Assembly (NCBI RefSeq): GCF_025460835.1
Contig: NZ_JAMXAY010000017.1
Span: 14,792 to 78,791 of the forward strand
Length of the DNA stretch: 64,000 bases
Reading direction: 5' to 3'
Source of the DNA: Parapedobacter soli
Lineage (GTDB): Bacteria; Bacteroidota; Bacteroidia; Sphingobacteriales; Sphingobacteriaceae
The position numbers and the translations under genes are program-made. Each line of letters begins with the position of its first letter. Position 1 is the first letter of the stretch. The notes below the pieces were generated by a model. The model saw only the letters and a program-made list of their open reading frames with translations, was not told the DNA's origin and made no database searches. Shown here piece after piece: positions 10,746 to 37,589 of this stretch.

Positions 10746-11561
10746 TTAATGATCCGTTACGCGTGAATGTTCGATGGCTTTACGTACGCTACCGTACTTT
10801 TCCAGTAAATCAGACGCGGTTTGGGCATCGATACCCGTCTCTTCCATAATAATACGGATGCCCCGGCTGAACAGCTTGTTATTGGTGAGCTGCATATCAA
10901 CCATTTTATTCCCCTTCACGCGGCCCAACTGGATCATCACCGTGGTGCTTATCATATTGAGCACCAGCTTCTGGGCTGTACCCGCTTTCATACGGGTGGA
11001 ACCCGTTACAAATTCGGGGCCCACGATCACTTCTACGGGGAAACCGGCAGCCGCGGCTATCGGCGTATTATCGTTGCAAACGATACACCCCGTTACGAGC
11101 CCGGCTTCATTGGCTCGTCGGAGGGCACCGAGCACATAAGGCGTTCCACCGGATGCCGCTATACCCACTACCACATCTTTGCTGTTGATGCCATGCTCTT
11201 GCAGATCTATCCACGCCTGCTCCATGTCGTCCTCCGCAAATTCCACTGCCTTGCGGATGGCGGTATCGCCACCGGCAATGATGCCGATGATCCAATCGTA
11301 AGGTACCCCGAAAGTGGGCGGGCACTCCGAAGCATCCAAAATACCCAGCCGGCCGCTGGTGCCGGCACCGATATAAAACAACCGACCACCTTCTTTCATG
11401 GAAGCCACGGTAACTTCGATAAGGCGCTCGATCTGGGGGATGGCTCGCTGCACAGCCGACGGCACCGTCTGGTCTTCGTTGTTGATATTGACCAACAATT
11501 CACTTACCGTCATTTTGTCCAAATCCTGGTAATTCGATTCTTTCTCCGTGGTATTTGTCAT
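10746..11561 (-). CDS. murQ: N-acetylmuramic acid 6-phosphate etherase
   Basis: 271 residues, near the usual 270-300. It converts MurNAc-6-phosphate to GlcNAc-6-phosphate plus D-lactate in the cytoplasm. The SIS fold carries the diagnostic FYIGAGTSGRLGILDASECP near residue 65, with the catalytic Glu in SECPP, followed by GIIAGGDTAIRKAVEFAEDD, VGIAASGGTPYVLGAL and GSTRMKAGTAQKLVLNM. It lies between the GH9 multidomain gene, with a 154-base gap that may hold a secondary promoter, and the symporter gene, spaced 14 bases. This is the gene that fixes MurNAc as the sugar handled by the locus. Confidence 0.95.
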   Translation of the reverse strand: MTNTTEKESNYQDLDKMTVSELLVNINNEDQTVPSAVQRAIPQIERLIEVTVASMKEGGRLFYIGAGTSGRLGILDASECPPTFGVPYDWIIGIIAGGDTAIRKAVEFAEDDMEQAWIDLQEHGINSKDVVVGIAASGGTPYVLGALRRANEAGLVTGCIVCNDNTPIAAAAGFPVEVIVGPEFVTGSTRMKAGTAQKLVLNMISTTVMIQLGRVKGNKMVDMQLTNNKLFSRGIRIIMEETGIDAQTASDLLEKYGSVRKAIEHSRVTDH

Positions 11562-11715
11562 CTCTCTCGTTGTTGTTATTCTACTCGGTGACCCCCGCTA
11601 TCGATACGTTGTCTGCCCTGTATTAGTCCGTTTCGTTTTGAGCAACCAAAAGTCGTTAAAGTAAAGAAAAAACGACTACAAATTAGTGAAATAATTCATC
11701 TATCCGTTTAAATGT

Positions 11716-14700
11716 CTACTTTTCTGGCTGTGCCTCCTCACGCGCTTGCTGTTCTTTGGCCGCTAGCAGATAAATCAACGACGCCGTACCATCCATGGTA
11801 GGCTCATTGGTACTGTAGTCGCCATAGTCGTCATGGTAGACTGCCAGATCTGACTGGAACGGCTCATGTGCATCTGGCTTGGTAAGCCGGATACCGATGA
11901 GATTATTGAATATGCTGCCGTACACGGGGCCATCAACCAGGCCGCCGTCTATCGGATAACTCTCCAAGTGGGTAAACGCTGAGTGTGGGTCGGTTGGTGT
12001 ATCGCCCCACGCCGGCAGGCCATACACCATGCTTGTACCCCATGGGTTGCAACCGAAGAGCCAGTCGAAATTGGCTTGCTCAAGCTGCGCATACGTATCG
12101 TCGTCCGCCAGTTCGCGGTACCATTGGCACTGGATGGCGAATGATGTGGTGAGGTTATTGCTGCACCAGATGAACGGCACACCCCGGTAGAAGGCATTCT
12201 GCCCCGCGCGCGCCCACACCTGCTCGATGCCTTGCCGGTAGTAGGCTATCACCTCATCGCGCTGGGCACCTTCCAGGTGTTGTGCCAGCTCGCGGTGCGC
12301 CAAGTTGATGAAGGGGTACCATTGGTAATGGGCTGCCGTATCTTGCGCCATCCAGGGTGTAACCGGCTCTTGCCGCGCGTAGGACAGGGCGTCGTTCAGA
12401 AAGCGTTCGTCGCCGGTGGCCTGCCATTGGGTCGCTGCGGCCAATGCCATGTCATCTACCCAGTTGTCTTCCGCATAGATGTAGGGCGACAAGATCGAGA
12501 CCGTTTGCGTAACGCCCGGCTTCCGGTTTGCAAAATCATAAGCCGTGGAAGCCTTGCCACTCAACAACTGGGCGTAGCCTTGGTTCACCTGCTCGAAGAG
12601 CGTACTTCCGAGGTTGAAGGCACTGGTAAACTTGGCCGCCGTAGAGCTGGTACCGGTGGTATTGTTCATAAACTTACCGCGTTGCTGCGGCTCACCATCG
12701 ATAAAGTATACGGGCCGCTCGTAACCACGGCCATAGAAATCGTCTTCACCCGGCATGCGCATGCCGGCATGGTCCCTGTCGTCAGCAATCTGGTTGAACA
12801 GCAGGTGTGGCTCGGGGTGCATTTTCAGCAGCCAATCCAACCCCCATTTAGCCTCATCGAGCACGTCGGCCACGCCATTGCTACCGTTTAGCCCGTTGGC
12901 CTGTTTGTGGTCGCTGAAAACATCTGGGAAATCGCGGTATGCTGCCAACAGATGATAGGTAGCATTGGCAGAAGTGGTGGAATATTGTAAATAGTCTGAC
13001 GCATCATGCCAGCCGCCAGCCACGTCGATGTGTGTACTATCGGGCAGACCTGCGCCGGACGCGTAGAGGGTGAACCCGTCGTGCGTGTGGCAACTATCCT
13101 GCAGGAACGGGTTGAACAGCGTACGTTGCTGCCGCATGTAACGCAGGGCAAAGTCGGCGGCGCCATCATAAACATCCGGGGCGATACGGAACTGGGGCGA
13201 GCGGGCGCCATCTACCTCAAGGTAATAGGTACCCGTATCTACATGGGCCGAAAAATCGAGCCGATAAGAGGTACGGAACGGCCCATACGCCCCAAAGTTG
13301 TTGCCTGTGCGGCCGGTATACACCGGCCTGCCCGTGTGTGCTTCAATAAGTGAAAATTTACGGAAATGTTGCGTGCCTTTGCCGCCCAATACGGCCACCT
13401 TGACCCCTTGTGGTGTATAGCCTAGCTGGTTGATGCGGATCCAAGCCCGCTCTTCAGGGTCGCCGTAAGCTAAGCAGACCACCTTGCCATCCATTGTGCT
13501 GGCCACCAGCTGCCGGTCTTTTAGCGGCAACATGGGGTTCACCATTGCATTGGAAAGCTTATACTGCCATATCACGGTGCCGCTGGTTGCATCCAGCCCA
13601 CTTACCAGTCCCGAGTGGCTGGGAACGAATACCTGTCCGTCGTTAGCCGCAATAGCCGAAGGTGTGAGCTCATAAGGTAGCTGCAGGGCTGAGGTCCAGT
13701 CAATCTGCATGGTATCGGCAGAAGTAGAGACACCCAGTACCTGGCCATCCATTGTCTTCACATACACAAGCCTACCGTCTTCGGACAAGCCCATAGATTC
13801 GCGGACCCGGATGCTATCGACTTTCTTGCGCCATACTTCCGAGCCGGTACGGGCATCGAGCGCGGTCATGTACCTGTCGGGCGCAACGATAAATACGCGG
13901 CCATTGGCCCCTACGGGATAGCAAGCCGCCGGTGAAAGCATACGGCTAGAAGCGCCGTTAGACCACTCCCATTTCAGCCGGCCATCGGCCGGGTCGAGCG
14001 CATAGAAGCCATTGCCCCACGAGCCGAAATACAGCGTATTTTCATACAGGAGCGGTTTGCCAGACACGTAGCCTTTTACGTCATCGAACGACCAGCGCAG
14101 CTGGCCTGACTTGATATCGATGGCACGGAATACACCGTCGGAGGCACCGATATAAGCCATTCCTTTATGCACCAGTGGGGAGCCCAGCACGGCCTTATCA
14201 GCCGCAAGGCGCCACCGTTCTTTGCCTGTTTTGGCGTCGAGGCCATAGATGTGCCGGTCGGTAGAGCCTACCACCACGTAATCTTTCCACACTGCCGGGG
14301 TCGAGTACACCTTGCCACCGGTTTGGAAGCTCCATACCTTACGGCCCGTCTGCGCATCGAGCGCATAGACCTGCCCGGCGGTATTGGCCGTGATTACGAA
14401 CTGCTTATAGGCAGCCAGTCCGGCACCGATATCGCTATTATCTTGGAAAGACCATGTCTCCCGCACGGCTGCGTGCCGGGTGTTCACGTCGTAGCTCGGG
14501 CGATCGTAATAGCGGCGCTCTGATGTGAAATCGTGGTTGACCAACGGAACCGTAGCCCACGCCGGCCGGGTGCCCACTCCCGGATTGCGCTCCCGGTAGG
14601 TAGCTTGGCCGTTGCCGATGGTAACGATGTTGTAGCCGCCCACGGTGTCTTTTGCCCGTAGGTTAGACCGCCCCATGATGCCGGGGATACCTTCGAAGTC

Positions 14701-15336
14701 GTATTGCTTGTTCTGGTGGCCGTGGCCACAGAAAAAGAGCTGCACATTACGTGTCTTTATGCGGTCGAGCGCTTCGAACCAGTTGTTGAGCGATGAGTCT
14801 TGCGGATAATGATTTACATAGATAAGCGGCATATCCGAGTCGGGGTTTGCCGCGAAGAGGGAGTCCATCCACACCAGGTTTTCGCGGGGCACTTGCCCGG
14901 GGCTCATCCGCATATTGGGGCCCGAGTTGGTGCCCACGAAGAAATAACCGTTGTGCACGAAGGCGAACGTTTCGCTACCGAACACCTCACGGAAGCTGTT
15001 ACCCCCGCTTTCGGACCAATTGGTGTCGTGGTTGCCCGGTATAATGTACCATGGGATGGTGAGGCTATCCAAAATCTGTTTAGCAAGCCGCAGCTCATCA
15101 TCCGAACCGAATTCGGTCACATCCCCCGACAGGATTACAAAGTCGAGATCGGGGTTGGCATTAATATCAGCTACCGTGCGCCGCAGGTCGTCTGCCGCCG
15201 TTGAGCCGCCCACGTGCGTATCGGTGACATGTGCGAATTGAAAGGGCTGGGCATCTACGGCCAACGCCGTAAAAAGCACCAGCACCTTCAACAGCACTAT
15301 TGGTTTTAATAGGTAAGGAGGTCTTTTAGCCGTCAT
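11716..15336 (-). CDS. Metallophosphoesterase / PQQ-propeller / GH9 glycosidase fusion
   Basis: 1206 residues from the ATG at 15336; the in-frame ATG at 15387 lies before the hairpin and has no signal peptide. Residues 10-30 form a signal peptide ending DAQ. Residues 33-245: calcineurin-like phosphoesterase with all metal motifs (DTH near 39, GDV 71, GNHD 101, NHYP 175, GHGH 204). Residues 290-625: repeated PQQ-type blades (VYALDAQTGRKVWSF, IYGLDAKTGKERW, FYALDPADGRLKW). Residues 632-720: GH9 N-terminal Ig-like domain (IRINQLGYTPQGVKVAVL). Residues 725-1200: GH9 (alpha/alpha)6 barrel, with GGWHDASDY giving Asp778 and Asp781 and NEPTMDG giving Glu1178 as proton donor. All catalytic residues appear present. 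GH9 is mostly cellulase, but exo-beta-glucosaminidases are known in it, which would suit a murein locus. It follows SusD. Confidence 0.85.
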   Translation of the reverse strand: MTAKRPPYLLKPIVLLKVLVLFTALAVDAQPFQFAHVTDTHVGGSTAADDLRRTVADINANPDLDFVILSGDVTEFGSDDELRLAKQILDSLTIPWYIIPGNHDTNWSESGGNSFREVFGSETFAFVHNGYFFVGTNSGPNMRMSPGQVPRENLVWMDSLFAANPDSDMPLIYVNHYPQDSSLNNWFEALDRIKTRNVQLFFCGHGHQNKQYDFEGIPGIMGRSNLRAKDTVGGYNIVTIGNGQATYRERNPGVGTRPAWATVPLVNHDFTSERRYYDRPSYDVNTRHAAVRETWSFQDNSDIGAGLAAYKQFVITANTAGQVYALDAQTGRKVWSFQTGGKVYSTPAVWKDYVVVGSTDRHIYGLDAKTGKERWRLAADKAVLGSPLVHKGMAYIGASDGVFRAIDIKSGQLRWSFDDVKGYVSGKPLLYENTLYFGSWGNGFYALDPADGRLKWEWSNGASSRMLSPAACYPVGANGRVFIVAPDRYMTALDARTGSEVWRKKVDSIRVRESMGLSEDGRLVYVKTMDGQVLGVSTSADTMQIDWTSALQLPYELTPSAIAANDGQVFVPSHSGLVSGLDATSGTVIWQYKLSNAMVNPMLPLKDRQLVASTMDGKVVCLAYGDPEERAWIRINQLGYTPQGVKVAVLGGKGTQHFRKFSLIEAHTGRPVYTGRTGNNFGAYGPFRTSYRLDFSAHVDTGTYYLEVDGARSPQFRIAPDVYDGAADFALRYMRQQRTLFNPFLQDSCHTHDGFTLYASGAGLPDSTHIDVAGGWHDASDYLQYSTTSANATYHLLAAYRDFPDVFSDHKQANGLNGSNGVADVLDEAKWGLDWLLKMHPEPHLLFNQIADDRDHAGMRMPGEDDFYGRGYERPVYFIDGEPQQRGKFMNNTTGTSSTAAKFTSAFNLGSTLFEQVNQGYAQLLSGKASTAYDFANRKPGVTQTVSILSPYIYAEDNWVDDMALAAATQWQATGDERFLNDALSYARQEPVTPWMAQDTAAHYQWYPFINLAHRELAQHLEGAQRDEVIAYYRQGIEQVWARAGQNAFYRGVPFIWCSNNLTTSFAIQCQWYRELADDDTYAQLEQANFDWLFGCNPWGTSMVYGLPAWGDTPTDPHSAFTHLESYPIDGGLVDGPVYGSIFNNLIGIRLTKPDAHEPFQSDLAVYHDDYGDYSTNEPTMDGTASLIYLLAAKEQQAREEAQPEK

Positions 15337-15374: not shown

Positions 15375-15416
15375 TTCCTATATACAATCAAGTTAGTACA
15401 TTCACACTGCAACATG

Positions 15417-17255
15417 TTATTCCCAACCTCTGGTTTGAGTAAGGGTGTAACCCTTTTCCATATAGTCAACAATCTGCGATTGCCCTACAGGCGATAGATA
15501 CACCTCATCACCAAATTCATTGCGGTTAGACGCATTCTGGATCATGAAATAACCCACCATATCGGCGGCATTGCTACCATTGTAAGTCACCACGGTACCG
15601 TCTTCCTTCTGCACCTTCAGCACGTCCACATAACTTTCCTGGATATAGGCAGGCACTTCCGCCTGTATATCTACCCAAGGACCAAGGAAGCGATCGGCGT
15701 CTTTGCTGTAATCCATGTATTCGATTTTCTTCCAGCGCTTGATGTCCAATAGACGGCTATATTCAAAGAAGAATTCCATACGGCGTTCCCGGCGGATTTC
15801 CCACATCAACGGCGACACGTCCGCATCGCGGTCAGGGTCATTGGGAAGTGCCGTTAGTAACAGCGGCGCCGTTTTCTTCACCCCTTTGGCAATCGCAACT
15901 TCATCAAGTGGCCTGTCGCGAATAGCATTAATCGACGCGTCAATATCAGCTTGGGTAACGGCTGCGCCACCGAAATTCTCGGCCAATACGGCCTTCGCCT
16001 CGATCCAATTGAGTACCGGCTCGGCAAGCCGCATAACCGGCGCATCGCTCGTGTTGGTATTGCTGCCCCAGGCGGGCGGATAGCCCCGGCCGATATAGGT
16101 CATCGCCTCGCGCGAGGCGAACTTATACGTATAGAACAACGACGCGGAAGCCGGAAGTGGCCGCTCAAAGAATGTCGCTTCGAAGCGAGGGTCACGCGTT
16201 ACAGCTAAATCGGCAATGGAGAAGCTGGAGGCATCGGCTACCGACGAACTTTGCCACACGTCGCCATCGTTACAGATAAAAGATTTGACCATATCCAGGT
16301 TGGCCCCTACCGGCTGCCCTTCAGTACCATTATTGTAGGAGCCGATGTGGTGAGTGATACCCAGCCCTGCATCATACGTACGCCATAGCATCACCTCCGG
16401 ATTTCCAGCTAAGTCTTCCGAGGCAAAAAGGCTTTTGAAGTCGCTCGTGAACGAGTAAGGACCACTCATGGCAAAGGCCGCGCTTTCCACTGCAAACTCC
16501 AGGTATTTCTGCGCACGGGTAGCATCCAGCCCGTGGTAGTGCAGGAAGGTCCCTTCGAACAGCATGAATCGCGATATGAAGGCGGCTGCGATGTACTTGT
16601 TCAGTTTTTGCTCACCATCATCCGCACGCATGTTTTCCATCACGAACTTGAAATCATCGTACACGGCATCCATCACGACGCCGCGGTCATCGCGGTCCTT
16701 GAACAATTCGTCCCAGGCATCGTCAGCCACCACGTGGTCGTAATACGGCACGTCGCCGAATACACTTACCAGGCGGCTATACTCAAACCCCCTGAAAAAA
16801 CGGGCTACCGCCATCCAGTGGTTAAAGGCATCTGGTGCCAGGTTGGGTTGTGCAACATTCTGTAGGCGATCAATGAAAATATTGGCTTTGCGCACCCAGG
16901 CGAAGTTCCACGTGGGCCCTGCATATTGGGTCATCCAAGCGGCACCCTCGCTAGCCGAACCCCTACTGGAGGGCACACTGCTCTCGAAGTGGCTTTGCAC
17001 ATTACGGCCGGTCAAGTCGTCGGAAAAGGTGTATCCCCTTACCGGCGTATAGTCGACACCCCAAGCACTATTATAGCCCACAAAATAGTTGGTGTAAAAC
17101 CCATTGGCAAACAAGTCGATGTCGGTTTCGTTACGCCAAAAATTATCGTCGACTGGCTGAGTCAATGGCGGCCGGTCCAAGACTTCTTCACTACACGCAA
17201 CCAAAAGTAACGAGGCTGCGCAGACACTGTATATCAATTTATTTAGAAGTTTCAT
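15417..17255 (-). CDS. SusD/RagB family glycan-binding lipoprotein (MurNAc locus)
   Basis: 612 residues. Lipoprotein signal MKLLNKLIYSVCAASLLLVAC; the sequence after it (EEVLDRPPLTQPVDDNFWRNE) is the usual SusD opening. The C-terminal part has the hallmark block WEIRRERRMEFFFEYSRLLDIKRW. SusD proteins sit on the cell surface as the lid of the SusC channel and bind the glycan. Its gene begins 11 bases after susC ends. The partner and context suggest murein fragments as ligand, which is inference. Confidence 0.95.
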   Translation of the reverse strand: MKLLNKLIYSVCAASLLLVACSEEVLDRPPLTQPVDDNFWRNETDIDLFANGFYTNYFVGYNSAWGVDYTPVRGYTFSDDLTGRNVQSHFESSVPSSRGSASEGAAWMTQYAGPTWNFAWVRKANIFIDRLQNVAQPNLAPDAFNHWMAVARFFRGFEYSRLVSVFGDVPYYDHVVADDAWDELFKDRDDRGVVMDAVYDDFKFVMENMRADDGEQKLNKYIAAAFISRFMLFEGTFLHYHGLDATRAQKYLEFAVESAAFAMSGPYSFTSDFKSLFASEDLAGNPEVMLWRTYDAGLGITHHIGSYNNGTEGQPVGANLDMVKSFICNDGDVWQSSSVADASSFSIADLAVTRDPRFEATFFERPLPASASLFYTYKFASREAMTYIGRGYPPAWGSNTNTSDAPVMRLAEPVLNWIEAKAVLAENFGGAAVTQADIDASINAIRDRPLDEVAIAKGVKKTAPLLLTALPNDPDRDADVSPLMWEIRRERRMEFFFEYSRLLDIKRWKKIEYMDYSKDADRFLGPWVDIQAEVPAYIQESYVDVLKVQKEDGTVVTYNGSNAADMVGYFMIQNASNRNEFGDEVYLSPVGQSQIVDYMEKGYTLTQTRGWE

Positions 17256-22423: not shown

Positions 22424-22472
22424 GTCTAATGTCTATTGTCTAATGTCTATTGTCTATCGTCTATTGTCTATC
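22424..22472. repeat. Tandem heptanucleotide repeat, seven units of GTCTAnn
   Basis: Seven consecutive 7-bp units read GTCTAAT, GTCTATT, GTCTAAT, GTCTATT, GTCTATC, GTCTATT, GTCTATC. The right end runs 12 bases into the GHL10 gene and supplies its last three codons and stop (DRQ-stop). Each unit carries TAG on the minus strand, so any change in copy number still gives an early stop. Confidence 0.9.
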
Positions 22473-23981
22473 ACCAAAACCACTCTCATTACCCAGCCGG
22501 TCTACCGCCGTCACCTTAACATCCGCCAATGCCGTCTCGCCGTCGGCTGCATAGGTGGCTAGCTTCAATGTCTGGGTATCATGCGGCAAGATGGTGTAAT
22601 CCCAATTCTCATCATAGCGGTAGTACACCACCCACTTGAATACGTCGTCGGGGTCGGCGTGCGACCAGCTTACTTCCACTTCACTTCCGTGTTTTTCGTG
22701 GGTAACCACCGGTGCATCAGGGGCCTCATTGCCCAACCACGGACTGGCGGGTACCAGTGCCTCCTTTTTATAGGGGCCGTCCAGCAGGCCTTGTGCCAAA
22801 AGCGGGTTCCGCGTGAGCGACGAGATACTCCAATGCACGGCACCTTTGCTTGCCGGCACGATACCGCGCGTGATCATGATCTGGTTGGTCACCTCTTTCA
22901 GGTTGGCCTCATCGCCACCCCGCCCTACATTCATACCGGGCCAAAGGTGGCGGCCCACTGTATTTTCCTGTTGCCACCAGCCCAGCAGCACGGGGAAGCT
23001 TTGGGGGATCTGCGATATCGGCCAATACAGCTGCGGTGTGAAGTAATCTATCCATCCCTTGTTCAACCACAGCTTGGCATCGGCGTACAGCTTGTCGTAC
23101 TGGTCCATCCCTGCGATGCCTGCTGGATAGCCGGGGCGCCAGATGCCAAAGGGGCTCAATCCGAACTTCACGTGTTTTTTAGTTGCCTTGATTTCCCGGT
23201 ATACGCGTTCAATGAATTGGTTCACCTGGCTCCGCCGCCAATCACCACGCGACAGCCTGCCGCCGTCCTGCTGATAGGCTTCCCACGAATCGTCATCGGG
23301 AAAATCCGCACCACCGTTGTATGAGTCGTACGGATAGAAGTAGTCATCGAAATGCACCCCATCGATATCATAACGCTTCACGATGTCCATCACCACCGCT
23401 GCCGCATGATCCTGCGTGGTCCTTTTAGCCGGGTCGAACCACCAATAGCCCTCCTTTAGCTTCACGACCGACTCCGGCATCCGGTTAACCATGGATGGCA
23501 GCTCCACCTCACCTGCCGCTACATGGTGGGCCCGGTACGGGTTTAGCCATACATGCAGCTCAAGGCCGCGTTTATGAGCTTCGTCTACCCAAAAGGTCAA
23601 TGGATCGTAGAAGGGATCAGGCGGCGTCCCCTGCTTGCCGGTGAGGTAATACGACCAGGGCTCGAGCGCACTATCGTAAAGTGCATCGGCCTGCGGCCGC
23701 ACTTGGAAGATAACGGCATTGAAGTGGTGGTCTTTCAGAAAGTCGAGTATGATGAGTGCTTCTGCCTGCTGGTCGGCAGTGTTCAACCCGGGTTTGCTCG
23801 GCCAGTTGATGTTGGCTACCGTCGCCACCCACGCAGCCCGGAACTCCCGCAAAGCTGGCGTTGGTGGCACCGACGACGAATCTTGCATAGCTGGCTTACC
23901 TACCGCATAAGAAGAAAAGAACCCGATACAGAGCAGCAAACACTTGGATATACTGCTTTTCAGCTTGAAACGTCGTTGCAT
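22461..23981 (-). CDS. GHL10 family glycosidase (DUF187, DigH/YngK-like)
   Basis: 506 residues with a signal peptide. Residues 45-400 form a TIM-barrel of the glycosyl-hydrolase-like GHL10 family: EFRAAWVATVANINWPSKPG, FNAVIFQVRPQADALYDS, EPWSYYLTGKQG, LELHVWLNPYRAHH, YDIDGVHFDDYFYPY and GLSPFGIWRPG. The C-terminal ~95 residues are a fibronectin-III-like domain (APDAPVVTHEKHGSEVEVSW). The E. coli member DigH cuts murein glycan strands that amidases have stripped of peptide. The gene directly upstream (28 bases) is such an amidase, which strongly suggests the same substrate. The 3' end lies in the heptanucleotide repeat. Confidence 0.85.
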   Translation of the reverse strand: MQRRFKLKSSISKCLLLCIGFFSSYAVGKPAMQDSSSVPPTPALREFRAAWVATVANINWPSKPGLNTADQQAEALIILDFLKDHHFNAVIFQVRPQADALYDSALEPWSYYLTGKQGTPPDPFYDPLTFWVDEAHKRGLELHVWLNPYRAHHVAAGEVELPSMVNRMPESVVKLKEGYWWFDPAKRTTQDHAAAVVMDIVKRYDIDGVHFDDYFYPYDSYNGGADFPDDDSWEAYQQDGGRLSRGDWRRSQVNQFIERVYREIKATKKHVKFGLSPFGIWRPGYPAGIAGMDQYDKLYADAKLWLNKGWIDYFTPQLYWPISQIPQSFPVLLGWWQQENTVGRHLWPGMNVGRGGDEANLKEVTNQIMITRGIVPASKGAVHWSISSLTRNPLLAQGLLDGPYKKEALVPASPWLGNEAPDAPVVTHEKHGSEVEVSWSHADPDDVFKWVVYYRYDENWDYTILPHDTQTLKLATYAADGETALADVKVTAVDRLGNESGFGDRQ

Positions 23982-24009: not shown

Positions 24010-25797
24010 TTATGGTATGGAATCCAAGAAACCCTTGACACCATCCACAATACGCCCCGCAACCTCATCCTGGAACGCAGGGTCCAGCAGCCGCTCTTCG
24101 TCGGCAGGATTGGAAAGGAACCCCACCTCCACCAGTACGTTGGGCAGCTCCGTCGGTGCGTTCAACGTGAAGTTGAACCCGCCCACATTGCCGAAATCGG
24201 CCAGTCCTAACTTCCGCATCTCCGCCAGGATATGCTGCGACAACGGCCGATATGCCTGGTGGCGGTAGTAAGTGGATACCCCCTGCACCATCGGATTACG
24301 GGAAGAATTGCAGTGGATACTGATCAACAGGTCGGCCTCCGACTGCCGGAACCGCTGCAACCGGTAACTGTTTGCCACCGACTGGTCGCGCGTGCGGGTC
24401 ATGATCACCATACTCCCCGCCGCTTCCAATGCAGCCTTCAGCTTCAGGGCCATCGATAGGTTGAGCTCCTTTTCCAGTACACCCGTCATACCCGACGCAC
24501 CGCGATTGCTACCACCGTGTCCGGCATCTACTGCAATAGTAAGTCCCCGCAAGTCTAGCCGGTCAGGCTGCGGCTTCACCCGGATAACCAACATATTTTT
24601 CTCATATCCAACATGATACCCCCACAACTGTTTCTCTTTTAGTTCGATAAACACGCGGAAAACATCCTTGCTTACCTGTTCATACCAAACATTGCTGATT
24701 GCCCGGAGGCCCTCCTTCTGCGTAATCCAATTGCTGTTTGATACAGCACCGTAAACATCAACAACAATACGCGTGGGGTGCTGCTGCACCACGTGGGTAT
24801 ACGGGAGCCGTTCACCCAAACCAATCCGCACGAAATCGTACGTGCTGTCAGAGGTTATCGACCAGCTGCCGGTAAGTGAGTATGGGCGGAAATGTACGCC
24901 CTCTTGTAAGCGCAGGCTGCTCACCGGAATATAAGCCTGGGCTTGACCGGAAAGCCGAACCCGGTACATATCGCCCATCTTTCCGGTTACCTCCAGCTTT
25001 ACCAAGCTATCGAGGTGGCCCATCTTAGCCCCGCCCAGGCGATCGCTACCCAACCCATAAAACAGTGGTGCATGACCGGTCGCTGTCAATCCGGTCAGCA
25101 CATGCGGTTGGTTGAGCACGGTGATCCGCTGTCGACTTTCCACCGTGACTGTTTTTTGGGTTGCTTTATCACGCAAGTAAAACGACACGGGTAAGCCGGT
25201 AAGACTATCCGATGGCTTGAGAATATATTCGCCCCGATAGATACCTGCAACACCGGCCGCAGCAGTATCGACTTCAAAAAGAGGGGTATTGTTATAAAAC
25301 GTGGCCTCCATGCCCGGTGTCGCTTTCATCTCTACTTGGAGGAGGTCGCCCGGTTGCAACCAAAGGTCGCCCGCAGGCAATATCCGGGCATATTCGATAG
25401 CAAATCCCACCGTAGGCTGTGGCGGTTCTGGCTTTTCATACACCAACACCAGCCTTTTGCGCAACGTATCTGTGCCCATCACGTGACAGACCTGCAATTC
25501 GTTTATTCCCAGCTGCAGATGTAACGGAGCCGCAAAGACACCGGTACTGTATACCGGGACGTCCACGCCGTTGACAGACAATGTCCCTGCAGGGTCCGCG
25601 ATTCCCCGGAAATACACGGGCGTATCGATGATGACCGTGCTGTCTTTTAGCGGGGATTTGATGGTTAACCTAGCACGTTGCTGCCCCATAGCTGTTTCCG
25701 AGCATACACCGACAATTCCGATAATGCTTAAGCAAAGTATCGCAACACAGCGTCGCCACTTATCGTTAGTCCGTAGATGATCAATCGTTCGATTCAT
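24010..25797 (-). CDS. N-acetylmuramoyl-L-alanine amidase (Amidase_3)
   Basis: 595 residues, with a signal peptide ending near AMGQQ. Residues 45-300 are Ig-like and SH3-like segments. An AMIN-like stretch lies near 310-410 (HPTRIVVDVYGAVSNSNW). The zinc amidase is at 421-595: DAGHGGSNRG (His427), EKELNL (Glu444), LLISIHCNSS (His495) and VLVEVGFLSNP (catalytic Glu557). It splits the lactyl-amide bond between MurNAc and the stem peptide in the periplasm, leaving bare glycan. It is the first gene of the unit with the GHL10 glycosidase and is divergent from murF. The long N-terminus, absent from short AmiC-type enzymes, is probably for wall binding. Confidence 0.92.
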   Translation of the reverse strand: MNRTIDHLRTNDKWRRCVAILCLSIIGIVGVCSETAMGQQRARLTIKSPLKDSTVIIDTPVYFRGIADPAGTLSVNGVDVPVYSTGVFAAPLHLQLGINELQVCHVMGTDTLRKRLVLVYEKPEPPQPTVGFAIEYARILPAGDLWLQPGDLLQVEMKATPGMEATFYNNTPLFEVDTAAAGVAGIYRGEYILKPSDSLTGLPVSFYLRDKATQKTVTVESRQRITVLNQPHVLTGLTATGHAPLFYGLGSDRLGGAKMGHLDSLVKLEVTGKMGDMYRVRLSGQAQAYIPVSSLRLQEGVHFRPYSLTGSWSITSDSTYDFVRIGLGERLPYTHVVQQHPTRIVVDVYGAVSNSNWITQKEGLRAISNVWYEQVSKDVFRVFIELKEKQLWGYHVGYEKNMLVIRVKPQPDRLDLRGLTIAVDAGHGGSNRGASGMTGVLEKELNLSMALKLKAALEAAGSMVIMTRTRDQSVANSYRLQRFRQSEADLLISIHCNSSRNPMVQGVSTYYRHQAYRPLSQHILAEMRKLGLADFGNVGGFNFTLNAPTELPNVLVEVGFLSNPADEERLLDPAFQDEVAGRIVDGVKGFLDSIP

Positions 25798-30972: not shown

Positions 30973-32184
30973 TTACCTACCATTCTGTTCATCCACCGGC
31001 CGGTCTCTGAACGAAATCAGGAATACCACCAGTACAACCGCGGCGATGCCCGCCGGGACAAGCCAAACCCCTTGCCAATTAAACTGCATGGCCGACCCTT
31101 CCGGCAACATAAACCATTCGGTAATCAATCCCGCAATATATGAACCAATCAGCATACCTACTCCGTACGTCGCAACAGTAATCAATCCCTGCGCAGAACT
31201 ACGGATACGGTCACCAGCCGTACGATCCACATAAATCTGACCGGATACAAAAAAGAAGTCATAGCATACGCCATGCAGTAAGATACCTAGATACAGCAGC
31301 CCCATGCCACTGTCGGCATCACCAAAAGCAAACAGTATATAACGTACAATCCATGCAATGATCCCTATGACTAAAATCACTTTGATGCCAAGGCGCCTGA
31401 AAGCAAAAGGTATAACAAGCAAAAACAGAAATTCTGAAAGTTGTCCAAGGGTCATCTTTCCTGCTGCATTCGTTATCCCAAGATCATTCAGATAGGGGTT
31501 GGCAAAACTGTAATAAAAGGATAACGGGATGCAGATAGCCAAAGATGCGAGGAAAAAAACCGAAAACGATCGCTGTTTGAATAACACCAGCGCTTCTTTT
31601 CCTAACACAGCGCCTAGGCTGGTTGTCGCAGTCCGGTCTGGCGGCGTTTCGGGAAGCATAAAGCTCACTAATCCCAGCACCGCCGACGCTCCTCCTGCAA
31701 GGTAAAACATGGACGTGCTGCTTTCCATGCCGAGGTAACCTAACAACAGACCCGCAACAATCCAGCCGGCCGTACCAAACACCCGGATAAGCGGAAATTC
31801 CCTGCCAGCATCTTTGAGCTGGCGGAAGGTGACGGAATTCATTAATGCCATGGTTGGCGCGAACAACAGTGCATAAAGTAACAGCAGCCACCAGAACACG
31901 CCGTAGTCGGCCGTATTGGCCAGTATAAGCAAAACGCTGGCACCGAGCAAGTGCAGTACACCGAGCACTCGTTGCGCTGCGAAATACCGGTCGGCCACCA
32001 GCCCCACAAATACCGGCGATAACGCCGCAGCGATAGAAAAGTTGGCATAAGCCGACCCCACCTGTACAGCGCTCGCACCGAGCTGGTCGAACAGGTAGGT
32101 GCCCAGAGTAACATACCAGGCCCCCCACGTGAAAAATTCCAGGAACATGGCCAACGAGAGCCGGACCCGAAGCCATAACGGCAT
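30973..32184 (-). CDS. MFS permease, nucleoside:H+ symporter (NupG-like) family
   Basis: 403 residues, 12 membrane segments. Family features: RLSLAMFLEFFTWGAWYVTLGTYL (in parts RLSLAMFLEFFTWGAW and YVTLGTYL), VGLVADRYFAAQRVLG, FPLIRVFGTAGWIVAGLLLG and GVCYDFFFVSGQIYVD. AGGGAG precedes the ATG by 9 bases. In Bacteroidetes PULs this family often accompanies Gfo/Idh/MocA enzymes and seems to carry sugars or oxidised sugars, not nucleosides. Here it lies between two oxidoreductase genes and a PQQ dehydrogenase gene, so an oxidised sugar is the likely cargo. Confidence 0.85.
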   Translation of the reverse strand: MPLWLRVRLSLAMFLEFFTWGAWYVTLGTYLFDQLGASAVQVGSAYANFSIAAALSPVFVGLVADRYFAAQRVLGVLHLLGASVLLILANTADYGVFWWLLLLYALLFAPTMALMNSVTFRQLKDAGREFPLIRVFGTAGWIVAGLLLGYLGMESSTSMFYLAGGASAVLGLVSFMLPETPPDRTATTSLGAVLGKEALVLFKQRSFSVFFLASLAICIPLSFYYSFANPYLNDLGITNAAGKMTLGQLSEFLFLLVIPFAFRRLGIKVILVIGIIAWIVRYILFAFGDADSGMGLLYLGILLHGVCYDFFFVSGQIYVDRTAGDRIRSSAQGLITVATYGVGMLIGSYIAGLITEWFMLPEGSAMQFNWQGVWLVPAGIAAVVLVVFLISFRDRPVDEQNGR

Positions 32185-35921: not shown

Positions 35922-37589
35922 CTAATAATTTGAATGTTGCGTCAGCTTATTGTTGGAACGGTCGATCTCGACCTGCGGAATAGGGAAAGGCCAACTATCT
36001 GTCCCCGCATCCCGGCCTTTATCCGCAAACCCATACGTATCATAAAACGTCTGCATGGTGTTGGCATAGTCGCCCCAACGGATTAAATCATAGAGCCGCA
36101 ACCCTTCCAATGCCAGTTCAGCACGGCGTTCGCGTTTGATGGCTGCCAACAGATCATCCGATGCTTTTACGGCGTATGTCGATTCAAATAAAGGTTCACT
36201 GATCGGCTTCAGGTCGGCCGCAAACTTCCGGAAAATAGCCGGATCATCCGTCTTCGACGTGGTGACAAAAGCCCGCCGCCTCACTTCATTGATCCGCTCC
36301 ACCACGTCGGCAGTGCTGCCATTGCTCTTCAACGATGCTTCTGCATAGATGAGCAACACTTCCGCGTAGCGTATCCAATACGGCTGCCAGTTGCTGCGCA
36401 GCAGATCGTTGTTCTCGCGGTATTGCTGTGGAACGAATGCTTTGCGGCTATGCTGCAGGTTATAGTCGTTGAAATAGCCTTGGTAGTTATGTACCTCCTG
36501 TCCGCCAGCTGAGGTTCGGAATATGTCGTTGTGGCTAATGATGGTAAACAACTTCCGCGGATCGGTCGGATCGTATGAAGCTGCCAGATCCCGCGTGGGT
36601 GTATTTCCGCCGTACCCGCCTACGTTGTTTCGTCCCACATTCATAATGGCGAAGGCATCCCCGCCTAAACCAAATGCCGGATTATAATCGCGCAATACAC
36701 CGAAGATATTTTCGCTTGAGAAGGGTCCCGTTTCGTAGTCGCCCCTAAACAGGTCTTGAAAATCCGGTAACAGGGACAACCCACCGTTTTCCACCACTTC
36801 TCCCGCTGCGGTTCTGGCAATCGTGTATTCTGCGGCAGCATCGCCGTCCATACGGCCTTGTTCCATCAGCCCCGCAAAAAACAATGCGGCTCTCGCCTTC
36901 AAGGCGTAGGCTGCATCTTTTGAAGCTCGCCCTGTCTCCGACGCGGCTAGCTGCATCGACCGCGGAAAATCAGGCTCGTTGATCGCTGCATCCAGATCAT
37001 TGTATAACTGCTCCCGCAATGCGACGATACTGGCCTTTTCCTTACGCGTGGCGGTTTCCTCAACGGTGGTTATCAATGGCACTTCCTTGAATACGGTGAT
37101 CAGGTCAAAATAATACCATGCACGCAAAAAACGTATCTCGGCCAAATAACGTGCAACCGTCTCTTGGGGGATTGCGACGCCACCCGAAACCAGATTGCCT
37201 CCTTCGCGCATAATAGCATCCAATGCAATGTTGCACTTACCAATGCCCCTATAACGATTCGACCAACATTCGAGCAAGAGCGGATTGGAGGTCAGCGGGC
37301 GCCCCCGGCCCACTTCCGTTGTCTGGGGACGATCGCCCGGGTCCGACCCGCCGGCATCGGCATTGTCTACTACTTCATCGCCCAGCGCCACTTTATTGAC
37401 GGAATATCCCCAGCCATCCAACATAGGCTGATAACAACTGGTCACCAATTTGATGCCCGCATCGTTTGTTTTAAAAAAATCCTGCTCGTTTGTCACACCG
37501 TAAGGTGGTCTATCGAGAAAATCACCGCTGCATCCGGAAATCACCAGTATGAGGGCGGTTATGCCTAAAACATATTGTTGCTTTTTCAT
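35922..37589 (-). CDS. SusD/RagB family lipoprotein (ECF-controlled locus)
   Basis: 555 residues. Signal MKKQQYVLGITALILVISGC and then SGDFLDRPPYGVTNEQDFF, the usual SusD N-terminus. The C-terminal RERRAELALEGLRLYDLIRWGDYA is the family hallmark, followed by the WPFPIPQVEIDRSNN block and a final NKLTQHSNY. It lies 21 bases after susC. The glycan is unknown. Confidence 0.95.
   Translation of the reverse strand: MKKQQYVLGITALILVISGCSGDFLDRPPYGVTNEQDFFKTNDAGIKLVTSCYQPMLDGWGYSVNKVALGDEVVDNADAGGSDPGDRPQTTEVGRGRPLTSNPLLLECWSNRYRGIGKCNIALDAIMREGGNLVSGGVAIPQETVARYLAEIRFLRAWYYFDLITVFKEVPLITTVEETATRKEKASIVALREQLYNDLDAAINEPDFPRSMQLAASETGRASKDAAYALKARAALFFAGLMEQGRMDGDAAAEYTIARTAAGEVVENGGLSLLPDFQDLFRGDYETGPFSSENIFGVLRDYNPAFGLGGDAFAIMNVGRNNVGGYGGNTPTRDLAASYDPTDPRKLFTIISHNDIFRTSAGGQEVHNYQGYFNDYNLQHSRKAFVPQQYRENNDLLRSNWQPYWIRYAEVLLIYAEASLKSNGSTADVVERINEVRRRAFVTTSKTDDPAIFRKFAADLKPISEPLFESTYAVKASDDLLAAIKRERRAELALEGLRLYDLIRWGDYANTMQTFYDTYGFADKGRDAGTDSWPFPIPQVEIDRSNNKLTQHSNY

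Follow-up and report, generated by a model that had tools for sequence, protein, structure and literature searches.

What an exported protein that joins a metallophosphoesterase, a β-propeller and a family GH9 glycoside hydrolase in one frame acts upon, and how such a protein came about, are the questions raised by a gene of Parapedobacter soli. The gene occupies positions 11716–15336 of a 64,000-nucleotide stretch of DNA (contig NZ_JAMXAY010000017.1, 14,792–78,791; hereafter the window); it and all features of its operon lie on the reverse strand (−). Comparison with related loci gave a stronger result than the three-part fusion itself: a fourth partner, a polysaccharide deacetylase of family CE4, just beyond the gene in relatives. 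Taken as a whole, the best explanation, with a probability that we put at about 70% on comparative sequence analysis, would be a fusion of two enzymes within an operon for N-acetylmuramic acid (MurNAc), whose GH9 unit has a CE4 partner produced by −1 recoding in relatives and lost in the window.

The CE4 partner is fused to GH9 or lies in its −1 frame

In most relatives, a CE4 deacetylase (PF01522) of about 220–240 residues is encoded between GH9 and murQ, and its best match in the PDB, over the whole length, is Bacillus subtilis PdaA (E 2e-9). The CE4 is fused in frame to GH9 in 39 loci. All apparently separate CE4 are in the −1 frame relative to GH9 (39/39 by motif search, plus L079 and L101); these 41 split loci correspond to 40 non-redundant ones, because L130 and L045 are one and the same P. 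tibetensis locus. In the −1-frame loci the CE4 lacks a signal peptide, and no ATG, GTG or TTG stands ahead of its catalytic motif 1 in 17/40. As judged from a dN/dS of 0.06–0.15, this frame is under purifying selection. The alignments place the GH9 unit in a Bacteroidota clade usually partnered by a PdaA-like CE4, either fused in frame or placed in the −1 frame. Close GH9-CE4 relatives are sparse, being found in 7/149 genomes sampled across the class.

A slippery heptamer and an upstream GGAGG mark the end of GH9

The slippery heptamer A_AAA_AAG, of the dnaX type and in phase with GH9, is present in 34/40 of the non-redundant −1-frame loci and directly precedes the stop codon in 32. In the remaining six, all from Sphingobacterium (L041, L043, L044, L056, L061 and L065), it is replaced by a run of ten A. 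A GGAGG resembling a Shine-Dalgarno (SD) sequence lies upstream, with a spacing of 10 nt in 24 entries (one of them a duplicate), 13 nt in 6 and 9 nt in 1. These distances fall inside the published range of 9–14 nt for SD-type −1 frameshift stimulators, that of dnaX being 10 nt (PMC5009743). The series GGAGG, about 10 nt, A_AAA_AAG and stop, followed by a −1-frame CE4, can be read at L045:13680–13730, L071:11700–11760, L125 and about 30 more loci.

The amino acids encoded over the GGAGG region vary (REV, QEG, LEE, QGG), and Glu codons near the motif are GAG rather than GAA in a ratio of 48:5, where the gene body has 305:452 (Fisher P 2e-13, with no correction for relatedness). None of 1091 other open reading frames ends in AAAAAAG-stop, though 41 end in Lys-Lys, and a search for GGAGG followed by AAAAAAG in the window's own genome gave 12 matches versus 5 in the reversed control. 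The relatives combine several hallmarks of a dnaX-type site: the heptamer in phase, an open −1 frame under selection and an SD-like element 9–14 nt upstream.

On the simplest reading, a programmed −1 recoding event is predicted to yield GH9 and GH9-CE4 from one message. Ribosomes would partly slip by −1 at the heptamer, giving an exported GH9 alone and an exported GH9-CE4, and the species with a run of ten A would reach the same outcome through slippage on the run. On the GH9 tree, the frameshift, A-run, fused and no-CE4 states need at least 14 changes, which fall in Sphingobacteriaceae, Hymenobacteraceae and Chitinophagaceae; most simply read, recoding and in-frame fusion would have replaced each other several times, and recoding would at times have disappeared. 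We found no earlier description of a GH9-CE4 frameshift in open-licence full texts, a scope that leaves out supplementary tables such as GeneTack clusters.

The window copy has lost both the CE4 and the slip site

The GH9 frame of the window ends CCA GAA AAG TAG, so that the heptamer position (11719–11725) reads A_GAA_AAG where most relatives with a −1-frame CE4 have A_AAA_AAG. A GGAGG persists at 11733–11737, 7 nt upstream of the former slip site, as a relic of the SD-like stimulator. Beyond the stop codon, positions 11712–11683 encode FKRIDELFH-stop, which corresponds to FKRIDKLFQ-stop at the end of the CE4 in P. pyrenivorans, and the homologous trailing DNA continues; this segment is a deletion scar in which the final codons of the former CE4 survive, and about 670 bp are missing. 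The comparison indicates that the window copy lost the CE4 by deletion and the heptamer by mutation, and it retains neither the heptamer nor the downstream −1 frame of a dnaX-type site. The other loci truly devoid of CE4 in the locus survey likewise have no A_AAA_AAG before the stop. Elsewhere, the window's genome encodes a standalone CE4 (G000:C68:78769–79458; about 6746–7921 of L113) that is 56% identical to the lost one and probably carries a signal peptide; it could act in trans.

The three-part protein is a fusion of two neighboring enzymes

The frame is open throughout 11716–15336 and encodes 1206 residues from its ATG, as the original prediction from the DNA sequence had stated; a TTG at 15387 offers an alternative start for a protein of 1223 residues. 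In the 1223-residue numbering, four Pfam families score above their curated cut-offs: Metallophos (50–225, E 9e-17), PQQ_2 (E 2e-57), CelD_N (646–729, E 7e-21) and GH9 (740–1208, E 5e-68). Read by eye, the hydrophobic N-terminus ending in ALAVDA/QPF is consistent with the predicted signal peptide (MTAKRPPYLLKPIVLLKVLVLFTALAVDA/QPF, 15250–15336). The calcineurin-like metallophosphoesterase domain (14713–15240) keeps the whole motif series DTH, GD, GNHD, H and GHGH, conserved in 29 sequences, and the catalytic residues predicted for the GH9 domain (11764–13170) are found exactly where expected (1206-residue numbering): Asp778 (13005–13003), Asp781 (12996–12994) and Glu1178 (11805–11803) show no variation across an alignment of 45 sequences (A1 columns D153, D156 and E553). 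Pfam score and this triad together place the domain in GH9. An Ig-like CelD_N domain (13201–13452) precedes it.

The predicted PQQ propeller holds as a propeller, of the BamB/PQQ_2 type with about eight blades (13480–14472), and shows no sign of being a quinoprotein. The AlphaFold model of the metallophosphoesterase-propeller part is confident, with a predicted local distance difference test score (pLDDT) of 90.6, and Foldseek matches the propeller to BamB and to designed eight-bladed propellers. A PQQ-dependent dehydrogenase is unsupported, with this BamB-like fold and a TIGR03075 score of 89 bits versus a cut-off of 480; "PQQ" is a fold label only, with nothing quinoprotein-specific in the propeller.

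An equivalent fused frame of 1213–1216 residues, 81–84% identical, occurs in P. pyrenivorans and P. composti, whereas in P. tibetensis, Olivibacter and Sphingobacterium the metallophosphoesterase-propeller and GH9 are adjacent genes a few bases apart. Comparison with P. tibetensis locates the junction at 13444–13470 (CL-AYGDPEERA-WIRINQLG): the end of the first gene, STMDGKVVCL, passes through a nine-residue linker into the mature start of GH9, WIRINQLG, and the stop codon, the intergenic spacer and the GH9 signal peptide present in P. tibetensis are gone. These alignments identify the protein as an in-frame fusion, in some Parapedobacter, of two neighboring exported enzymes. That the three-domain frame stems from an assembly or sequencing error might be suspected in a draft genome of 177 contigs, and is practically excluded because the identical architecture recurs in the independent assemblies of two other species. 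The three-part architecture is unusual, as proposed, though narrowly so: two adjacent genes have fused at the level of one genus. The metallophosphoesterase-propeller occurs with MurQ and without GH9 in L116, L121 and L122, and GH9-CE4 with MurQ and without the metallophosphoesterase-propeller in L127; each thus occurs without the other, in the manner of separate modules within a common system.

The fusion sits in a peptidoglycan-utilization operon

The operon runs in the order amidase, GHL10, NamZ, SusC, SusD, fusion, MurQ and sodium symporter. It encodes an N-acetylmuramoyl-L-alanine amidase (Amidase_3, 24010–25797), a GHL10 glycosyl-hydrolase-like protein (22461–23981), the exo-β-N-acetylmuramidase NamZ (PF07075/PF20732, 20801–22096), a SusC/RagA TonB-dependent transporter (TIGR04056, 17267–20752), a SusD-like glycan-binding lipoprotein (15417–17255), the MurNAc 6-phosphate etherase MurQ (10746–11561, TIGR00274 over cut-off) and a sodium:solute symporter that is a candidate MurNAc importer (PF00474, 9244–10731). 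With MurQ, an exo-muramidase, SusCD and an inner-membrane transporter in one operon, the gene content identifies a MurNAc/peptidoglycan-utilization locus. About 40 genomes share the order metallophosphoesterase-propeller, GH9, MurQ and symporter and have NamZ and SusCD in the vicinity; in Pontibacter the arrangement is partly altered. No MurNAc kinase of the MurK/BadF type is encoded in the operon; elsewhere in the genome there are two sub-threshold matches to PF01869.

The phosphoesterase looks active. Its best PDB match, 2dxl/2zo9, is listed as "phosphohydrolase" only; we take it to be GpdQ, a glycerophosphodiesterase, which gives no more than a hint for the removal of phosphate from teichoic acid that the original prediction offered as an example. 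A phosphate or phosphodiester on wall fragments as target would fit the context. A more tentative pathway can be sketched from these genes. The deacetylase might strip N-acetyl groups from a wall-derived amino-sugar glycan that GH9 would cleave; NamZ might release MurNAc for import by the symporter; a kinase not found in the operon would phosphorylate it, and MurQ would then convert MurNAc 6-phosphate to N-acetylglucosamine (GlcNAc) 6-phosphate. The phosphoesterase would probably take a phosphate or phosphodiester group off these wall fragments, with the propeller as a putative docking or spacer module.

A NagZ-like GH3 and β-lactamase-domain protein is encoded between the metallophosphoesterase-propeller or CE4 and MurQ at L116:13287–16241 and in L127 (981-residue gene). 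A GH3 relative of it is encoded outside the operon in the window's genome, where the GH3 and β-lactamase halves match separate contigs, C103 and C91. Elsewhere in the window, a Nuc_H_symport family transporter (30973–32184) adjoins GFO/IDH/MocA oxidoreductases, with a SusD-like gene nearby (35922–37589). Just upstream of the window, two near-identical 185-residue lipoprotein-like genes (L114:2569–3126 and L114:4994–5551) surround a gene with a Fic-like HPFLDGNGR motif.

Alternative explanations of the frameshift and of the GH9 substrate

Several points weigh against the recoding proposal and its wall-sugar setting. There is no consistent downstream hairpin (mean z −1.1 versus mononucleotide shuffles, some loci below −3). 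Efficient slippage on A_AAA_AAG has been linked to a sole tRNA-Lys (PMC5009743), and P. tibetensis encodes a tRNA-Lys(CUU) besides the UUU species; this should weaken slippage on AAG and makes a high efficiency less likely. The anti-SD of Bacteroidia ribosomes is reportedly sequestered by way of bS21 (PMC9976891), which makes the mode of action of GGAGG puzzling: the conserved element would be either an elongation-phase signal, perhaps on bS21-free ribosomes, or the mark of another mechanism. Two anti-SD patterns of the 16S tail matched nowhere in the genomes, a complete one included, probably because the rRNA is masked or the pattern wrong; what is said here of the anti-SD is taken from PMC9976891. 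The GH9 of L193 keeps an in-phase A_AAA_AAG with neither GGAGG nor an adjacent CE4; a CE4 lies about 1.7 Mb from GH9 in that genome. Catalytic motif 1 of the CE4 is atypical (GDE/GHD/ADE). About 40 GH9-CE4 loci, mostly in-frame fusions, have no MurQ in the DNA fetched, so that a wall substrate is unproven for the clade and its roles may be wider; and MurQ is nearly universal among relatives, which makes phylogenetic co-occurrence with it uninformative. GH9 and CE4 might instead be ordinary overlapping genes, with GGAGG as the ribosome-binding site of CE4 for re-initiation after the GH9 stop, as a TAGTG stop/GTG overlap with an upstream GGAGG suggests in L031, L032, L045, L052 and L079. This is improbable in our estimate: the 17/40 loci without a usual start before the catalytic motif (the first start being up to 104 codons in, in L108) and the lack of a signal peptide in CE4, next to an exported GH9, argue against it, as do the 39 in-frame fusions; nor would re-initiation lead one to expect that A_AAA_AAG is invariant or that the frame is always −1.

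The target of GH9 can be weighed in the same way. The physical link between the clade and a PdaA-like polysaccharide deacetylase makes a glucosamine (GlcN)- or muramic acid-bearing substrate plausible, and, with operon and partner taken together, the foremost candidate is a peptidoglycan-derived amino-sugar glycan, at roughly even odds. An ordinary endo-β-1,4-glucanase or xyloglucanase placed by chance in a wall-sugar operon, with cellulose or xyloglucan as target, seems unlikely. The closest solved relatives, 3x17, CelD, J30 and BoGH9A, are indeed endo-acting, but are just 20–25% identical. The Arg of PHHR and the Tyr of NE..DYNA, typical of GH9 cellulases, are replaced in the window protein, which instead has PHSAF and NEPTMDGTA, near-invariant in 45 sequences; the operon with MurQ and NamZ is conserved, a deacetylase is the partner, and this domain is the sole GH9 Pfam match in the genome. 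The original prediction pointed to the exo-β-glucosaminidases within GH9. A Vibrio/Photobacterium-type exo-β-D-glucosaminidase (VC0615, PBPRA0520) substituting for NagZ would suit the deacetylase partner, as VC0615 cleaves (GlcN)2 and not (GlcNAc)2 (PMC6096475), yet it too is doubtful. The fold is closer to endo-GH9s (TM score 0.68–0.74) than to the exo-glucosaminidase group (0.63–0.68), as is the sequence, and the genome holds the GH3 relative of the NagZ-like protein. The long α9-10 linker of VC0615 (residues 404–442) blocks its pocket (PMC6096475), and no such insertion relative to endo-GH9s is seen here (modelled linkers of 14 and 5 residues, pLDDT 62–67 in part). An established membership of the Vibrio-type group is hence unsupported by loop anatomy or fold ranking, while the GH9 model, with a pLDDT of 78 and of less than 50 in several active-site loops, does not suffice to separate endo from exo action. 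The interpretation first offered is supported in its wall and amino-sugar context, by the operon shared among about 40 genomes and the tie to the deacetylase, and not in the exo-glucosaminidase analogy.

Implications

If true, −1 recoding of GH9-CE4 would bring a metabolic enzyme into the set of bacterial genes that frameshift productively by −1, and a single tree would offer natural replicates of slip site, A-run, in-frame fusion and loss. Through the conserved GGAGG, it becomes testable whether the Bacteroidota anti-SD, sequestered in initiation, acts in elongation. The GH9 clade would likely act on wall-derived amino-sugar glycan and not on cellulose, where automatic annotation would say endoglucanase. 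We advance more tentatively the wider proposal that, in a Bacteroidota family of wall-glycan enzymes, −1 frameshifting guided by an internal SD might set the ratio of GH9 to GH9-deacetylase despite a hidden anti-SD, and that this clade might be the first peptidoglycan-active GH9; frameshift output could then depend on ribosomes without bS21.

Comparison with known systems

Escherichia coli dnaX has the same heptamer in the same phase, with an SD-like element equally distant (10 nt). In the GH9 relatives, the 0-frame stop comes after the heptamer, so the shift lengthens the protein, a consistent 3′ hairpin is absent, P. tibetensis also has tRNA-Lys(CUU), and the phylum is reported not to use SD in initiation. 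The MurNAc deacetylase PdaA of B. subtilis is the best solved match of the partner CE4, which differs by being fused or frameshift-linked to GH9, by its altered motif 1 and by its deletion in the window. The murTKQ/NamZ muropeptide-scavenging cluster of Tannerella forsythia shares MurQ, NamZ, a transporter and the logic of MurNAc catabolism; the window operon has no kinase, and the metallophosphoesterase-propeller, GH9 and CE4 come in addition. The endoglucanases CelD, 3x17 and BoGH9A share the CelD_N and GH9 fold and the catalytic residues, two Asp and one Glu, whereas the window GH9 is remote in sequence, has altered PHHR and NE..DYNA motifs and sits in a peptidoglycan operon. VC0615, PBPRA0520 and VP2484 are likewise GH9 enzymes of amino-sugar pathways, but those described belong to chitin pathways, and the window GH9 lacks the blocking α9-10 loop.

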